Below are positions 2,106-14,587 of a stretch of 20,029 bases of DNA, piece after piece. A program made the translations under genes and the position numbers. How positions within the stretch are numbered: position 1 is the stretch's first letter; every line of letters begins with the position of its first letter. The stretch is from a virus: positions 1 through 20,029 of IMG/VR virus record IMGVR_UViG_3300001844_000064; one strand, written 5' to 3'. The notes under the pieces are model-generated. The model had not been told where the DNA came from. It did no database searches and saw only the letters and a list, made by a program, of their open reading frames with translations.

Positions 2106-2134
2106 ATTCTACCAGCTTAATCGCGTTTTGGCAA
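2106..2134 (-). promoter_or_regulatory. sigma70-like promoter before the tail fibre
   Basis: TTGCCA (2129-2134, 5/6), a 17-nt spacer, and TGG-TAGAAT (2106-2111, 5/6 with extended -10). It overlaps the last codons and stop of the large ejection protein. The -10 ends nine bases before the fibre ATG, with AGGG in between acting as a possible Shine-Dalgarno. An mRNA start near 2099 would leave only a few bases of leader. Confidence 0.55.
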
Positions 2135-5100
2135 GCGCCCGGAAGTCGGCCGCGCCCGCTGGTCCGGCAGGCCAAGGTTGTCGGACAGGCCCTCCTCGGC
2201 GCGGTTCAGGAGGTATTGCAGATAGAACAAGTTCTGCCCCGGCATGAGCCGGCGCAGGCGGTGCATATCCGCGGTTGTCATGGTGTCCTCGCCGAACGCG
2301 TTCAGCACGTCCTTGATGCTCTCGATCTGGCTGGCGGACGGGCCGAGGACGCTGGCTAGGAGGCTGCGCCCCTGGTAGCGCTCCGGCTCTGTGCCCGCGG
2401 CGGCTTGCGCGAGCGACTGCACGCGCCCGCCCGTCGCGGCGCTGTATACGCCCGCCTTGCCGAGCAGGCTATCGCCTTCCATCAGAAGCCCAAGGACGCC
2501 GCTGCGGTCTACCGCGTTGACGGCCCACTCGCGCGCTGTGCGGTCCTTCACCTCGCCGTCCGCGGCAATGTCACGGAATACCTGCGACAGCGCGCCGAGC
2601 GCGACCATGCTCGTCAGACCCGCAAGTGCGGTGCCGTCACGCATCTGCAAGTTGAGAAGCAGGATGCGGGAGATTGCGGCCGAGCTAAAGCGCTTGAATT
2701 GGAACAGGGTCTTGCCCCACTCTTTGCTCGTCCACAGCGGGGCGTCGCCCGCGCCCGGCGTGATGATCGTGCGGCGGATGCCGCCGACAAGCGCATCGCG
2801 GAACGCGCGAACCGCGACAGCATCGTCCCACAGTTCTGTGTTCGCGATGATAACCTGCGCGCCGCGTTCCCACTTGCTGGACTGCGCCCAAATGCGCGAG
2901 GCCATATTCTCGTCGAGGTAGGACTGGCTGAGTTGAAGCTGCTCACGGCGCGTCAGCGTCTTGCCGTTGGCGAGCTTCTCCACTGTGCGAAGGATGCTTG
3001 TTCCCTTGTAGTAGGAGGTCGCGGCCTTCATCACCGTGTTCCACAGGTTGATGCCCGTGACATCGGCGAACTTCGAGGCGGTCCAGTCCGACCAGCGCTC
3101 GGCCGCATTGACGGCGTCGTACGCTGTGCCGCGGTCCATGAGTGCCCGCAGGCGCGAGGATTTGCCGAGTTCGATTACCTCGCCCGCAAGCTGCGCCTCT
3201 TTCGCGGCCATGCGGATGCCCTTGAAGCCACGCGCGAAGTCAACGGCGAGCCCGCCGATAACGCGCCCGAAGCCGTGCTGCGCTACGATCTGGCCCAAGT
3301 CCATCACCGACGCCGGCACAGTTGCGCCGAGCATCGTTGTCAGGTTCCAGTCGCGCACGACTTTCGCAGTCGTGCGCATCGCAGCCATCGCGGGGTCCGT
3401 CGGGATTTCAGCCGTGCCGCGGATCAGGTTCAAGACGGCCTGAACCTTCTTCGCCTCGATGGCCGCCCGGTTCTGGAGCGCTGTGCGCTCCGCTTCGGTC
3501 CATTCCTTGCCGTTTGCCTTCGGCTTGCTGACGATGTCGCGCGCCTCCGCGATGATGTCGCCGCTTAGGTCGGGGTCTGGCCGGCCGAACTTGCGCGCGA
3601 GTTCGGTGTCCGTAACCATTGTGCGGATGAAACGCGACATTATCTGCTGCACGTCGTGAACTAGGAAGTCCTCGATGCGCTCGTCAGGGATGTTGAATGT
3701 GCGCTCTTTCATCGGCCCGCGCGCTTTCGGGATTTTGAGGAACGGCACGCGGCCCGCGGGCGAGCCCATAATGTTCGCGGTTATGTCGCGGGCCATGAGA
3801 GCGAAGTCGCCCGCTTCGAGCCCATCCTCGGTCACGACTTCACGGAGCCACTGCGCCACAGCCGCCTCGAAGTCCGGCAAGCGTGCCTTGATCTTCTCGC
3901 GGTCATAGACGCGCGTGAAGTAGCTGTCGGCGGTTTTCACGTCCACGTCGGGCGGGAGCAGCTTTTGGTCGATAGCCTCTTTCTTCAAGGCTTCGACAAT
4001 CGTGCGTGCGGCGCCCGCGGCTTTCGCGACAGTCGGCTCTGGCGACACGTCGCCTCGCCGCATCGCGCGGCCGACAACTTCACGCCACGTCTTATCGTCC
4101 ATCGCGTTGGCGCCGCGCTCGACGCCGTGTTCGCGCACGAGCGCGCGGAGCGTGTTTCCAAGCTGGAAATCCAACGCATTCGCACGGCTCTCGATGCGGA
4201 CTTCAACCGGGTACGGCATGTTGACGCCGCGCTCGGCGCCTTTCCAAACCGTGCCGATGTCCACGAGGTCTGCAATGGCTGAGCGCACGGTTGGGAGTTC
4301 TGATACCGCGAGTTCTACAGCCGGCGCAGCGAGCCCGACCTTTCCGAGTTTCGCAAGCGTCTCCGCGGCGAGCCCGGTGGAAATGAGCTTCGTGTCCTCG
4401 GGCGCTGCGCGCGTAGACGCGGCCGACAGCGAGGCCGGCCCTAGGGCCATATCGGTATAGTCCTTGACGGCTTTCGCGTACACGTCCGCGGTGCGGGCAG
4501 ACGACCGCGCTGCCGCACCCGCGAGCGCGCCGCCGATGCCCAGGCCGAACGCGCCGCCAAACATCACGGCGATGGCGCTCTCTTGTGCCGTACGCGTCTG
4601 CTGCGTTGCCTGAAGCGCGAGTTCGCTGACGGCGACTTCGCCGGCTGTGCGCGCTGCAAGCGAGACTGCCATCCGGGCGCCCGTTGCCGCCTTCGAGCCC
4701 CACCCGAAGAACGGGATGTAGCTCGTCGGATCGGCGAGGACCGCAAGCCCCGTCGCAAGGATTTCGGGCAGCGGGCCGTTGCCGAGTTGCTGGCGAAGTA
4801 GTGTTTCGGTGTCGCGCTCGCGCCGGATTTCGTTCATTTCAGCGAGCGAGCGAGCGTCCGCTAAGTGCGCCCAGTTCGTCTCCTCACCGGGAAGCAGGTG
4901 CTCCACCGGATTGAAGCCGGGCTCCGCTTTGAACGCGCGCCGCGTGCCGAAGATTTCCTCGGCGCCCGCAACGATAACATTCTCGGAACGGAACGCGGCA
5001 CCAAGCTGTTGGCCCGGCGTTACGCCTGTGTCGTCCGTTTCGGGCGCAACCGGAAGCGGGTTAAGGTTTGTTACGACGCGTCGTACCCGAGAGAGCGGGA

Positions 5101-5218
5101 CGTTCAACGTGGGCGACGGCTCGGTCGCCGCCGTCTCCGCGGATTGCGGCGTCGGCGAAGCACTCGGAGTGCTTGCAATCGGCGAGGGGTTGGGGCTCGG
5201 AGCGTCCGCAGCGGCCAC
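2117..5218 (-). CDS. Large internal virion / DNA-ejection protein, T7 gp16-like
   Basis: At least 1033 aa. It opens with a Pro/Ser/Ala linker, then EEIFGTRRAFKAEPGFNP and LADPTSYIPF (162-170), and a glycine-rich hydrophobic stretch at about 216-235 (AIAVMFGGAFGLGIGGALAG) suited to membrane insertion. The C-terminus has LRRLMPGQNLFYLQYLL, typical of this family in podoviruses. The frame is open back to about 5268, but the GTG at 5218 has no adjacent Shine-Dalgarno and the first in-frame ATG comes only near residue 128. Either a +1 shift from the upstream lytic frame makes a 1274-aa fusion (T7 gp16 is 1318 aa and carries the same two parts), or translation starts at CTG 5242. The gene stop overlaps the tail fibre promoter. 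Confidence 0.88.
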   Translation of the reverse strand: MAAADAPSPNPSPIASTPSASPTPQSAETAATEPSPTLNVPLSRVRRVVTNLNPLPVAPETDDTGVTPGQQLGAAFRSENVIVAGAEEIFGTRRAFKAEPGFNPVEHLLPGEETNWAHLADARSLAEMNEIRRERDTETLLRQQLGNGPLPEILATGLAVLADPTSYIPFFGWGSKAATGARMAVSLAARTAGEVAVSELALQATQQTRTAQESAIAVMFGGAFGLGIGGALAGAAARSSARTADVYAKAVKDYTDMALGPASLSAASTRAAPEDTKLISTGLAAETLAKLGKVGLAAPAVELAVSELPTVRSAIADLVDIGTVWKGAERGVNMPYPVEVRIESRANALDFQLGNTLRALVREHGVERGANAMDDKTWREVVGRAMRRGDVSPEPTVAKAAGAARTIVEALKKEAIDQKLLPPDVDVKTADSYFTRVYDREKIKARLPDFEAAVAQWLREVVTEDGLEAGDFALMARDITANIMGSPAGRVPFLKIPKARGPMKERTFNIPDERIEDFLVHDVQQIMSRFIRTMVTDTELARKFGRPDPDLSGDIIAEARDIVSKPKANGKEWTEAERTALQNRAAIEAKKVQAVLNLIRGTAEIPTDPAMAAMRTTAKVVRDWNLTTMLGATVPASVMDLGQIVAQHGFGRVIGGLAVDFARGFKGIRMAAKEAQLAGEVIELGKSSRLRALMDRGTAYDAVNAAERWSDWTASKFADVTGINLWNTVMKAATSYYKGTSILRTVEKLANGKTLTRREQLQLSQSYLDENMASRIWAQSSKWERGAQVIIANTELWDDAVAVRAFRDALVGGIRRTIITPGAGDAPLWTSKEWGKTLFQFKRFSSAAISRILLLNLQMRDGTALAGLTSMVALGALSQVFRDIAADGEVKDRTAREWAVNAVDRSGVLGLLMEGDSLLGKAGVYSAATGGRVQSLAQAAAGTEPERYQGRSLLASVLGPSASQIESIKDVLNAFGEDTMTTADMHRLRRLMPGQNLFYLQYLLNRAEEGLSDNLGLPDQRARPTSGRLPKRD

Positions 5219-5942
5219 AGCGAAAGGGGGCCGGGCTAACAGCGCCCGGCTCCTCCGCGGTCGTGGGCGTCAGGTCCGGCACAGGGGCGGCAAATACTCG
5301 CGCCTGTCCGGCCGCGACGGCAGCGCCGCCGGCCTGCGCGCCCGCATCAGCGGCGCCTTGGGCTACAGTGCGCTCCGGGGCGTCGGTGCCAACGATATTC
5401 TCCTGCGGGGGCGCGACCGGGCGACGAGCGACCGTCGGGAGCGGCCGGTCGCCGAGGAACGGGTTCGGGTTGTCATGCTCAACGACCGCTCGAACGGCGC
5501 CTTCTTCAGTGACTGGATCGGTAAAACCCGGCGCCTCGCCCGAGGCCATCTGCACGCCGCGGACGATCTGCTGCTTCGTGTACGGGTTGCTGCCGTTCTC
5601 GTGATACACGATGGCGGAAATCAAGTCCGGCAGCTTGCCGGGATCGAGGCGCGCGTCCGGGCGAACGCCCATCTGCGACGACACGGACTTGATGTACGCC
5701 TCGGTGTCGTTCTCGACATCCGGCGCCCAACGCGAGACGATCTTGCGGATCGTGTCGAGGCCGTACTTCTCGCGGTACGTCGTGAGCACGCGCGCCATCG
5801 CGCGAATGCCGTACTCCGGCGTGTCAAACGTGACGAACGCGTCGTCGCCCTGGACAGGGCTCGCGCCCTCCCACTGCGTCTCGCTCTTGCGGATGTTGCC
5901 GGGGTTGTTGTTGCGGATGCCGCGCGCGGGTTGCGTTGCCAT
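5061..5942 (-). CDS. Virion peptidoglycan-cleaving protein (0 frame of overlapping pair)
   Basis: Residues about 8-140 form a lysozyme-like domain of the kind seen in structural lytic virion proteins such as PRD1 P5-like ones: RGIRNNNPGNIR at 7-18, QWEGA at 23-27, FDTPEYGIRAMARVL at 39-53, KIVSRWAPDVENDTEAYI, and YHENGSNPY at 113-121. Glu25 and Glu115 are candidate catalytic or structural acids. Its job would be local cell-wall opening during DNA entry, the role of the N-terminal transglycosylase of T7 gp16. A Pro/Ala-rich linker follows to about residue 240. The last 53 residues are unlike the rest (Cys-, His- and Arg-rich) and overlap the next gene's linker in another frame, which suggests that ribosomes often leave this frame near 5223. 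It starts directly after the previous stop (TAAATG). Confidence 0.85.
   Translation of the reverse strand: MATQPARGIRNNNPGNIRKSETQWEGASPVQGDDAFVTFDTPEYGIRAMARVLTTYREKYGLDTIRKIVSRWAPDVENDTEAYIKSVSSQMGVRPDARLDPGKLPDLISAIVYHENGSNPYTKQQIVRGVQMASGEAPGFTDPVTEEGAVRAVVEHDNPNPFLGDRPLPTVARRPVAPPQENIVGTDAPERTVAQGAADAGAQAGGAAVAAGQARVFAAPVPDLTPTTAEEPGAVSPAPFRCGRCGRSEPQPLADCKHSECFADAAIRGDGGDRAVAHVERPALSGTTRRNKP
5220..5256 (-). promoter_or_regulatory. Candidate +1 frameshift or CTG re-initiation site
   Basis: In the 0 frame the codons read CCC TTT CGC (5228-5220). Slipping of the Phe codon TTT to TTC moves the ribosome +1 into the frame of the large downstream protein. CCC-T is also a known type of +1 site. 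Upstream lie a GGAGGAG (5250-5256) and a 7-bp stem (arms 5244-5250 and 5230-5236, 7-nt loop) ending five nt before the TTT. The same GGAGGAG is seven nt before a CTG at 5240-5242 in the downstream frame, so internal initiation is a real alternative. Confidence 0.5.
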
Positions 5943-8207
5943 TTACTTCGTCACCTTCGAGGTGGATTTCGTTAGGGGGGCTGTGGCCGGGCTCTTGAAC
6001 AGATCGCGCGGGCCAACATAGCCCGGTGGCTTCTGATACGGGCCAATAGTTTGATCCATGCGCTGGATCGTCGGGCGCACCGCGTCGCGGACCGCGTTCA
6101 GCGCGGGTGGGACGTTCTCCTCCAGCCCCTTGCGGAGCAGCGAGGGCGCGACGGCCCGCGCCGCGTCGGCGTTCGCCTGCGCGATGATCGCGGCGTACTC
6201 CGGCGTCGCGGTGAGCCGCGCGGCGTCGGGCATTGTGTAGCGCAGGCGCACGGTCGCACCGTCGTCGCGCTCGACGATGATCGGCACGAGTTGGCCCATG
6301 TTGTTGCGGGCGCGAAGCTCGTACGACGGCCGAAGCCCGTTCACAATCTCAGCCTCAGTTACGGGGTCCGCATGGAGGTCGAAGTCGGGCGTGCCGCTCG
6401 CGTCCTCGCCGTCGCCAACGACGGTTGCCGGCACGACACCGTACGCGCCCATCACGCGGCGCACGTCGCCGTCGAGGATCGTGCGCTTCTGCGCATCCGA
6501 GAGCACGTCGGGCTTGTTGTAGACGCCGGGGAAAAACTGTTCTGCCGGATACTTGACGATGCGCTCCTGGCCGCCCGCAGTTCCGGTAACGCCGTAGCGC
6601 GACGCGAAGTAGCGATTGGCAGCGCCGAGTGCCGCGCGGCGTTCACCGAACACGTCGTAGAACGCGCGCACCGAGCGCTCGTAATCCACCGCGAGCGCGG
6701 GGTCAACTTGCGCGCTCGTGCCGATGCCGAGGAACGCTTTAGCGCCAGGGATCGCTTTGCGCAGTTCGGCCGCGAAGTCATAGCCGACCTTGAAGTCCGC
6801 TTTGTACTGCTCGCGGCGGTGTGCAAGCGTCGCGTTGTCGGGAACGCGCTCGTTGACAAGCGCCGCCGCATCGTCGTACAGCATCCCCGTGTCGGCCACG
6901 AGGCCGCTAACCAGGAGCGCGCGAGAGCCGTCCTTGAAGATGTCCGCGAACACCGCGTCGGGGGCGCCGGCCTTGTGCAGCCCGTCGTACAACTGCGCTG
7001 CGCTGGCGAGCAGCGCCGGATCGTTCACGCGGTCGCTGTTCTCTAGAACGCGCCGGTACTCAGTCGGGACGCGGCCACCACGGTTGACAAAGTCAGAGAG
7101 CAGCGCCAGCCGCGCCCCGAGCGGGGCGCCCTGCGGGAGCACGCCGCTGATGCTGGCCCACACCGCGTCCGCTTGCTTCTGATCGTCGAGCCCGACGCCG
7201 TTGCGGTAGTTGTTGAGGCCCGTGACGAGGTCGCGGCTCGCTGTAACAATTTGGCCGCGACGCGTCTCCATAGCGGCGCGAAGTTGCGCGTAGACCTGCG
7301 GCTGGTGCTGGAACAGCCCCGCAGCCTCCTGCGCATCGAGTTGGCGGCGTTGCTCCTCCAAGGCAGCGACGGTCGGGCTCTCGTCGATAGCCGTCCGGTG
7401 CTGCGCGACCATCGCTTCAGTCGCCGCTAGGAACTTGCGCTCTTGGTCGCTCTCGATTTCGTTTATGAGCCGGCCGGCGCCTCGGCGAGCGGCGTCCGTC
7501 AGCGCGTCGTTGTGTGCGCCCAGGTACGCCCGCGCCTCGTCGTTGCGGCCCTGGAGTGACAAGCCCTCGGCCTTTGCGATGATCGCGTCCTGCGCAAAGC
7601 TCAGGGCCAAAGCGGCAGTCTTGACGCCCGGCAGCGCCGCGCCAATCTCGGCGGCCTTCGGCTGGAACTGCGCGAGGTACACATCCTCGCCGTCCGGGTC
7701 CTTGCGGATTTGCGCGAGCGTCGCCTGCGCTGTGGTGCTGTACTGCGCTTCGGCGACCGCCTCGACGGCCTTGTGGCGAGCGCCGATGGCCGCGCGCTGC
7801 GCAGTACCAACCGCCTGCTCGATGTTCGCCCGCATTTGCAGGAGCGGGACTTGCGAGTGGAACTGATCTGCCGCGGCTTCCGTAATGCCGGCGCCGGCTT
7901 CGCGGTACGCCTCGACGACCTTCGTCTCGTAATCCACTTCCATCGGGTCGAGCGTCGCAGCCTTTGCAGCCGCTTCCGTCTCGAAGCGCTGTTCGAACTC
8001 GATCCGCTTCAGCGTGTCCCGGTTGGCTTGGTCGTCGCCGATGGCCTTGGCAAAGTCAGACAGGCCCTTGGCAAAATTCTGGAGCCCCGCGCCCGTGCTG
8101 ATAACGGGAACCTGCGGCGCGGGCGCCGGCCCAGCCATGCGCGGAAGCGGCGGCGGGCTCGGAGCCATAGCCGGAGCGGTGAGTACGTTGCGTGCGCGGT
8201 TTGCCAT
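5943..8207 (-). CDS. Internal virion protein, T7 gp15-like
   Basis: A 754-aa protein, close to the 747 aa of T7 gp15, made almost wholly of charged helices. The N-terminus is a Pro/Ala-rich stretch (residues 10-35), then GLQNFAKGLSDFAKAIGDD, a common opening in internal core proteins. Repeated helical units follow, then FFPGVYNKPDVLSDAQKRTI and a beta-like region (MGQLVPIIVERDDGATVRLRYT). The C-terminus ends in a basic Ser/Thr/Lys tail. It lies exactly between gp14-like and lytic/gp16-like genes, and both boundaries are TAAATG. The expected job is the periplasmic part of the DNA-ejection conduit. Sequence similarity within this family is low, so the call leans on order, size and composition. 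Confidence 0.82.
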   Translation of the reverse strand: MANRARNVLTAPAMAPSPPPLPRMAGPAPAPQVPVISTGAGLQNFAKGLSDFAKAIGDDQANRDTLKRIEFEQRFETEAAAKAATLDPMEVDYETKVVEAYREAGAGITEAAADQFHSQVPLLQMRANIEQAVGTAQRAAIGARHKAVEAVAEAQYSTTAQATLAQIRKDPDGEDVYLAQFQPKAAEIGAALPGVKTAALALSFAQDAIIAKAEGLSLQGRNDEARAYLGAHNDALTDAARRGAGRLINEIESDQERKFLAATEAMVAQHRTAIDESPTVAALEEQRRQLDAQEAAGLFQHQPQVYAQLRAAMETRRGQIVTASRDLVTGLNNYRNGVGLDDQKQADAVWASISGVLPQGAPLGARLALLSDFVNRGGRVPTEYRRVLENSDRVNDPALLASAAQLYDGLHKAGAPDAVFADIFKDGSRALLVSGLVADTGMLYDDAAALVNERVPDNATLAHRREQYKADFKVGYDFAAELRKAIPGAKAFLGIGTSAQVDPALAVDYERSVRAFYDVFGERRAALGAANRYFASRYGVTGTAGGQERIVKYPAEQFFPGVYNKPDVLSDAQKRTILDGDVRRVMGAYGVVPATVVGDGEDASGTPDFDLHADPVTEAEIVNGLRPSYELRARNNMGQLVPIIVERDDGATVRLRYTMPDAARLTATPEYAAIIAQANADAARAVAPSLLRKGLEENVPPALNAVRDAVRPTIQRMDQTIGPYQKPPGYVGPRDLFKSPATAPLTKSTSKVTK

Positions 8208-13569: not shown

Positions 13570-14436
13570 TTACTCGGTGCAGGCGACCTGAACGACCATC
13601 GCGTCCTCTTTGCGCACGGCGCCCCAGGAGCCGAACGTGTAAATCTGCTTCGCGTGGCGCTTGTCCGGGCGATCCGACGCAATCGAGTTCGGGTCGGTCT
13701 GCGGACGGAACTCGATGCCGGGGCGAGCGAACGCGTAGCACAGGCGGGCGCCGCCGGACGAAGTCAGCCGCTCGCTGCGGACGAACTTGAAGCCCAGGTA
13801 GGTGTCGATCTGGCCGGCGACAAGCGCCTTAATCGTGTTGAAGTCGGACGACGTGACCTTGTCGTCCTCCAGCAAGTCGGCGATCTGCTCGGCCGAGCAC
13901 ACGAAGAAGCGGTCCATGAAGTCCTCGACCTCGGCAGCGTCGAGCAGCTTCTTGGCGTCGATCAGCTTGCCGACCGTCAGGCCGACAGAGCCCGACGCGA
14001 TCTGCTGCGCAGACGGGAAGGACGTGGTCGTGGTGCCGTTCTGGCCCTCAATCACCGAGCCTTCGAGGGCGTTGATGATCGTGGTGTCCATCGTACGGCC
14101 CATCACGCCAGCGTGCTTGATGGTGTACGAGCTATCCGGGTCGATCAGCAGCTTGACACGATCCTGGCGGTCGATCAGGTCCGCCACGTCGTAGTCGGCG
14201 ATGAAGCCCCAACGACGGGTGTGCGGGGTGTTGTTGAGCGGGGTGTCGCCGTGGCGCACAGTCACCGTGTTCGCGGAACTCTGCGTGGTGCCGATGCGCT
14301 CGACAGTGAAGCTCTCGCCGGTCACGCGCTCACCGACGGTGACGCACGGACGCAGGCGCGAGAAGCGCTGCTCCGACAGGAGATGCACGTTCGCGGAGAA
14401 CTGCTTGACGAAATGGGCGGGGATCGAAACGGACAT
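13570..14436 (-). CDS. Major capsid protein
   Basis: The 288-aa coat subunit of the icosahedral shell. It begins MSVSIPAHFVKQFSANVHLL, followed by a QRFSRLRPCVTVGERVTGESF segment, then HGDTPLNNTPHTRRW and IADYDVADLIDRQDRVKLLIDP, the layout of capsid proteins in BPP-1-like and related podoviruses. Late motifs include LGFKFVRSERL, YAFARPGIEF and KRHAKQIYTFGSWGAVRKED. The fold is expected to be HK97-like. ATG at 14436 is chosen over the upstream GTG at 14484 because GGAG lies six bases before it and conserved sequence starts here. Position after scaffold, its own promoter and a downstream terminator all fit the most abundant virion protein. Identification rests on pattern and position. Confidence 0.9.
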   Translation of the reverse strand: MSVSIPAHFVKQFSANVHLLSEQRFSRLRPCVTVGERVTGESFTVERIGTTQSSANTVTVRHGDTPLNNTPHTRRWGFIADYDVADLIDRQDRVKLLIDPDSSYTIKHAGVMGRTMDTTIINALEGSVIEGQNGTTTTSFPSAQQIASGSVGLTVGKLIDAKKLLDAAEVEDFMDRFFVCSAEQIADLLEDDKVTSSDFNTIKALVAGQIDTYLGFKFVRSERLTSSGGARLCYAFARPGIEFRPQTDPNSIASDRPDKRHAKQIYTFGSWGAVRKEDAMVVQVACTE

Positions 14437-14587
14437 CGTAGGCTCCAGGTTGGCAGAGTTGAATGGGGCACCGACGCACGACACCGTGCGCCATGAAAGA
14501 GGCGGTTCCTTAGTTCCGCTTCCCTCGGGTGTCCCTGTCTGCCGTCACCCTCGCGGGTCGGAGCCAATCAGAGGCCGAATGAAGTTC
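14437..14587 (-). promoter_or_regulatory. Structured 5' leader of capsid mRNA
   Basis: The stretch between the predicted transcription start and the capsid ATG has no credible gene. It contains an 8-bp stem with a GUGU loop (14473-14492, one G-U pair) and two mutually exclusive pairings: a GGGTG segment at 14546-14550 can pair upstream with ACCC at 14555-14558 around a GCGA loop, or downstream with CACCC at 14527-14531. It ends in a good Shine-Dalgarno, GGAG six bases before the ATG. It may stabilise the capsid message or tune translation. No known RNA family is recognised. Confidence 0.4.

Follow-up and report, generated by a model that had tools for sequence, protein, structure and literature searches.

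Overlapping lysozyme and gp16-type ejection protein frames in an uncultured podovirus: a possible former fusion

Are the lysozyme and the large ejection protein of an uncultured podovirus made as one protein, as two, or as both? The question is raised by record IMGVR_UViG_3300001844_000064, of which we analysed a stretch of 20,029 bases (the window) holding a podovirus structural module on the minus strand. In it, the open reading frame (ORF) of a lysozyme, here frame 0, runs into that of a gp16-type internal virion protein (the body), which is read in the +1 frame. A sequence-only reading of this DNA had proposed that programmed +1 recoding at the junction fuses the two. We tentatively favour a different history, in which lysozyme, linker and body may once have formed a single protein whose frame is now broken by a single base, with separate initiation of the body. 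The likelihoods attached to this and to all other readings are judgements and not computed probabilities.

Both halves of the locus have clear homologues. The lysozyme ORF comprises a catalytic domain (about residues 7-138), an Ala/Pro-rich linker that extends to about residue 240 and a Cys/Arg-rich frame-0 tail of 53 residues. Its first 140 residues match phrog_873 (E 9e-57) and share 37-51% identity with the N-termini of T7-like gp16 proteins, and the lysozyme matches the endolysin of phage Enc34 (PDB 7q47) both by sequence (E 3e-17) and by Foldseek (E 7e-9, 36% identity). AlphaFold was confident for the catalytic domain only. Judging from sequence and model, the ORF carries the catalytic fold of the Enc34 endolysin and is predicted to cut peptidoglycan. 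The Enc34 protein is an endolysin, whereas the window lysozyme sits in an operon of virion proteins and bears a long linker. The body matches phrog_342 (E 5e-79) and phrog_16310 (E 4e-98); its AlphaFold model was too poor for a structure search.

Reading TTTC as one step joins the two frames into a product of exactly 1,274 amino acids, the size originally proposed, with no other change needed. This joined reading matches PHROG 342 as one stretch (residues 10-1253 on 52-1227). Likewise, gp16 of the T7-like Escherichia phage Penshu1 (1,296 amino acids) matches phrog_342 over its full length, and Gp29 (PDB chain 9vvp_L, 1,295 amino acids) carries both domains in the order of the window and is colinear with the joined reading. 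Because all three agree in layout, the shared lysozyme-body architecture is real, and the claim that the locus holds two domains of the T7 gp16 type stands. The likeness to Penshu1 gp16 lies in a homologous body, an N-terminal lysozyme of the same broad family and the gene order tubB-14-15-16-fibre, which is the order of T7-like phages. However, Penshu1 gp16 is one uninterrupted ORF with a lysozyme of another clade, whereas in the window the two domains lie in different frames and a low-complexity linker of ~170 amino acids stands between them. Gp29 also differs in being a single chain, and its body is distantly related.

Where does coding pass from one frame to the other? Without a stop from 5269 onwards, the body frame overlaps the lysozyme frame by 209 nucleotides, or by 158 nucleotides when counted from its first ATG, GTG or TTG, which is GTG 5218. 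The overlap that had drawn attention is present but not unusual: 4 of 37 relatives with a GC content of at least 60% have overlaps of at least 118 nucleotides, so that one of 158 is ordinary at high GC. A codon model that compares the frames directly with each other is clear for frame 0 before ~5225 and clear for +1 after ~5090, and between these points it is nearly neutral (8-10 nats for +1 over 38 codons). A neutral preference over 5218-5063 is as expected from two translated frames. A first codon analysis, in which each frame was set against an out-of-frame background, placed the switch at 5142, with 5227 just 1.8 nats worse; it was superseded by the direct comparison.

Protein-like composition moves from frame 0 to +1 at CCCCCTTT (5230-5223), adjoining GTG 5218. 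The 36 residues after this GTG include 30 (83%) that are Pro, Ser, Ala or Thr, and zero Arg, Gly, Cys, Trp, His or Lys. Among 13,805 out-of-frame windows read in the +1 manner none has such a make-up, but none of 34,377 in-frame windows has it either. Over a 40-residue span, the frame-0 tail past residue 240 holds four Cys; none of 5,417 in-frame windows of this phage does so, compared with 2-12% of its out-of-frame ones. In all of these tallies the windows overlap, and the counts are not independent. Both the decay of frame 0 beyond residue 240 and the linker-like character of the +1 frame, as first described, are borne out. In relatives whose frame is open upstream of the body start the extensions are junk-like (Pro/Ser/Ala/Thr fraction 0.23-0.39 in seven), and this, together with the amino acid make-up of the overlap, suggests that the +1 linker is probably translated. 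The Cys pattern of this tail (CxxC..CxxxxC) was also considered as a zinc ribbon, an idea dropped because Pfam gave no match and PDB only marginal ones.

The sequence-only reading had also been correct in placing CCC TTT CGC at the junction; it stands in frame 0 at 5228-5220, with CCC TTT C at 5228-5222. A shift-prone codon is thus found at a switch between two coding frames, as a +1 frameshift would have it. Among the 6,039 codons of the phage, in-frame TTT_C was counted 3 times, CCC_T 3 times and CCC_TTT 0 times. The C5T3 tract is also among the four tracts of adjacent runs that reach 8 nucleotides or more in the window, and among its 11 runs of 5 nucleotides or more. CCC_TTT_C, rare and located at the switch, is compatible with a shift and equally with an indel.

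The usual aids to +1 shifting are missing. In bacteria such shifting is aided by slow or stop codons (PMC3498833, PMC10885494). Here the A site holds CGC, the commonest Arg codon of the phage (315 of 6,039 codons), and no stop follows; for slippage on CCC, the A-site codon would be TTT, a minor codon (27 versus 171 for TTC). The GGAGGAG that had been put forward as a stimulator lies ~22 nucleotides ahead of the slip codon, too far for the spacing of an RF2-type (prfB) stimulator, and there is no internal Shine-Dalgarno sequence at working distance; it is instead well spaced for CTG 5242. The 7-bp hairpins, credited with the same role, were ruled out, since the window contains 34 perfect 7-bp stems, some overlapping, and the junction RNA folds no better than shuffles (z -0.80 and -0.67, nothing unusual). 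An Rfam search gave nothing near gathering scores. The slip codons themselves, CCC or UUU_C, are those of known systems. In Listeria phages PSA, A118 and A500, CCC is a +1 shift codon and the sites are accompanied by a stop codon or a pseudoknot (PMC5009743). Influenza PA-X (UCC_UUU_CGU) shifts at ~1%, a rate that drops 40-70% when UCC is changed, CCC being among the changes (PMC3498833). In contrast, the junction has no such stop codon, pseudoknot or conserved UCC/CGU context.

How do relatives make the body? Pattern and alignment scans gathered 221 distinct body proteins, in none of which (0/221) the body shares an ORF with a lysozyme of the window type. Where the N-terminus is available, a start codon stands at the canonical place in 207 of 211 (ATG in 201), followed by Pro in 178. 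The gp15-like gene usually abuts the body gene or overlaps it by a few bases (median 1 nucleotide), and where a window-type lysozyme sits just upstream of the body it is located inside the gp15-like gene. The closest annotated homologues, at ~30% identity and in the same neighbourhood, are the TL-2011b-type ejection proteins of Escherichia, Klebsiella and Vibrio phages and prophages; their body likewise has its own start right behind the gp15-like gene, and their lysozyme, if present, lies inside that gene. None of the relatives examined has a lysozyme as its own gene between the gp15-like gene and the body. The combination of overlap, site and +1 relation occurs in 0 of the 221, all of which are too distant (at most ~40% identity) to align the junction. 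An exact search for the junction with variable tract length gave no match, though records very near the window were possibly left out of it. With the usual aids lacking, no relative sharing the arrangement and the body of relatives starting on its own, the proposal of programmed recoding was not supported.

Some relatives deserve mention in their own right. The body protein of L110:5683-9048 begins at an ATG of its own and has a long N-terminal extension rich in Pro; it offers a precedent for a linker-like N-terminus on a body that is started separately. In L096:5917-9179 (a contig shared with L362), a near relative with ~40% identity in its second half, the body is split into ORFs of 495 and 598 amino acids with an ATGA overlap, at a point where an apparently coiled-coil extra stretch is inserted. 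L152:3523-9492 encodes a body protein of 1,990 amino acids with an N-terminal extension of 776 amino acids, unlike the remaining relatives.

In the history that we favour, a lysozyme and a gp16-type body would have become one protein of the T7 gp16 kind, connected by a disordered Pro/Ala/Ser linker and built independently of that of T7. One base at C5T3 would then have interrupted the frame, leaving the lysozyme to read on for 53 unconstrained residues. The body would be made as a separate protein, most likely from GTG 5218, where +1 becomes protein-like, with CTG 5242 and TTG 5107 as alternatives. Both products would be expected in the virion, the lysozyme opening peptidoglycan and the body forming part of the ejection channel. 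The linker itself points to a past link with the body, because stand-alone lysozymes of the family mostly stop at the domain (at most 8 residues beyond it in 33 of 39). Several observations weigh against this history. GTG 5218 has effectively no Shine-Dalgarno sequence (-1.7 kcal/mol), while GGAGGAG gives CTG 5242 a value of -9.5 kcal/mol, stronger than any start listed for the window, and CTG start codons are rare; since five further CTGs in the window have a similar Shine-Dalgarno-like sequence, this one may be there by chance. Val (GTC) stands where the body should have its canonical Met, and a TTG precedes it by two codons. Linker-like sequence is present on both sides of the junction, and a linker continuing across it is also expected of one continuous protein. 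Furthermore, single-protein, alignment and exact-DNA scans of viral_contigs, genome_contigs and two taxon searches returned no relative closer than ~40% identity, and hence none that shows whether the interruption is real.

A linker that continues across the junction and a joined reading that is colinear with PHROG 342 would also result from an assembly error: the virus would have a single lysozyme-linker-body ORF like T7 gp16, and the record a one-base error in the C5T3 run. Longer runs are few in the window and the junction coincides with one of them; records of this kind do contain broken frames, as in 4 of the 221 relatives, where the body ORF is split. We consider this rather unlikely, as no gene in the rest of the 20-kb window is visibly broken and an error placed at random would, by our estimate from length, fall between the two domains only about 1 time in 7; were +1 alone in use, the codon model should also prefer it more clearly over 5225-5090, a weak point. 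A programmed +1 frameshift at CCC TTT C, by which a fraction of ribosomes would make the fusion and the rest free lysozyme, would explain why so slip-prone and rare a site marks the composition switch, and the codon model would allow both frames to be in use. CCC (PMC5009743) and the PA-X sequence (PMC3498833) are known slip sites; yet the common A-site codon, the distant Shine-Dalgarno-like element and the lack of a stop or of significant structure, as well as the low efficiency of PA-X and its fall with CCC in place of UCC, make this explanation improbable, and an indel in the same run accounts for the site equally well. The data are accounted for at least equally well by separate initiation or by a one-base assembly error, and among the mechanisms compatible with them programmed recoding is the one least required.

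Least probable of all, in our judgement a long shot, is a pair of ordinary overlapping genes, in which the body starts at TTG 5107, the overlap is 47 nucleotides and the +1 linker upstream is never translated, so that peptides from SPNPSPIASTPSASPTPQSAETAATEPSPT are not expected. The N-terminus read from this TTG does align with the true starts of relatives (for example MPFIDANEQPVGGIRPLPPE.. in L013), clear +1 codon preference begins only there, and GC-rich relatives sometimes have an open frame upstream of their start. Against it, the +1 stretch 5218-5108 is unlike both out-of-frame sequence and the junk-like extensions of relatives, the frame-0 tail has the Cys richness of out-of-frame sequence, and the Shine-Dalgarno sequence of TTG 5107 is weak (-2.2 kcal/mol).

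That the fusion we favour would be separate from that of T7 is suggested by the lysozyme tree. The T7-like gp16 lysozymes, four in number, make up a clade to themselves; the window lysozyme falls outside it, a starred branch (95/92) placing it in the opposite half of the tree, indicating that the pairing of lysozyme and body probably arose independently of T7 gp16. In L253:4989-10058 and L265:4989-10013, a lysozyme of the window family is N-terminal in ORFs of 1,690 and 1,675 amino acids, and the L253 ORF additionally matches the virion structural family phrog_11190; this is another, apparently independent, fusion of the domain to a large virion protein.

Features of the lysozyme-body locus and its upstream neighbour; coordinates are those of the window.
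Feature	Position	Strand	Remarks
gp15-like internal virion protein	5943..8207	-	754 amino acids; stop abuts lysozyme ATG; identity mainly from position
Lysozyme (endolysin-type) gene	5061..5942	-	293 amino acids; ATG right behind gp15-like stop
Lysozyme catalytic domain, 'RGIRNNNPGNI' motif	5520..5942	-	from alignment and tree
Stretch open in both frames	5061..5269	-	209 nucleotides
GGAGGAG, Shine-Dalgarno-like	5250..5256	-	spaced for CTG 5242
7-bp hairpin GCCGGGC-GCTGTTA-GCCCGGC before tract	5230..5250	-	CTG 5242 in loop
CCCCCTTT tract at frame switch (C5T3)	5223..5230	-	CCC TTT CGC in frame 0; CCC CCT TTC GCT in +1
GTG, favoured body start	5216..5218	-	without Shine-Dalgarno sequence
Pro/Ser/Ala/Thr-rich linker, +1 frame	5108..5218	-	absent from aligned relatives
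TTG, at relatives' canonical body start	5105..5107	-	window MNVPLSRV.. versus MPLI../MPFI..
gp16-type internal virion (ejection) protein body	2117..5218	-	1,033 amino acids from GTG 5218; 221 distinct homologues

The module around the locus comprises terminase, portal, scaffold, capsid protein, tail tube proteins, gp14-like and gp15-like proteins, lysozyme, gp16-type body and fibre, some of these genes being named from position and size alone. A PHROG search with the gp15-like protein gave no match; it weakly matches the gp15-like/lytic protein of EC.W1-9 (E 0.016). Strong Shine-Dalgarno sequences are present in few genes of the phage, and most genes abut or overlap the preceding one. The capsid protein (13570-14484) has its nearest relatives in Pelagibacter HTVC010P-like phages (45-48%) and the ejection body in the TL-2011b family, indicating that the module is mosaic; neither lysozyme nor body was seen in the contigs with the nearest capsid proteins.

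To our knowledge, recoding has not been reported in a gp16-type ejection protein, and a real +1 frameshift at CCC_TTT_C in the domain linker would be the first for this protein class, and would set the ratio of free lysozyme to fusion. Together, the relatives and the window show a wall-cutting domain that is mobile: it is part of the gp15-like protein in enterobacterial relatives, belongs to gp16 in T7-like phages, and in the window has a gene to itself exactly between the two, with a linker that resembles the remnant of a former fusion. If the two proteins are indeed produced separately, the locus would represent domain fission at the linker.

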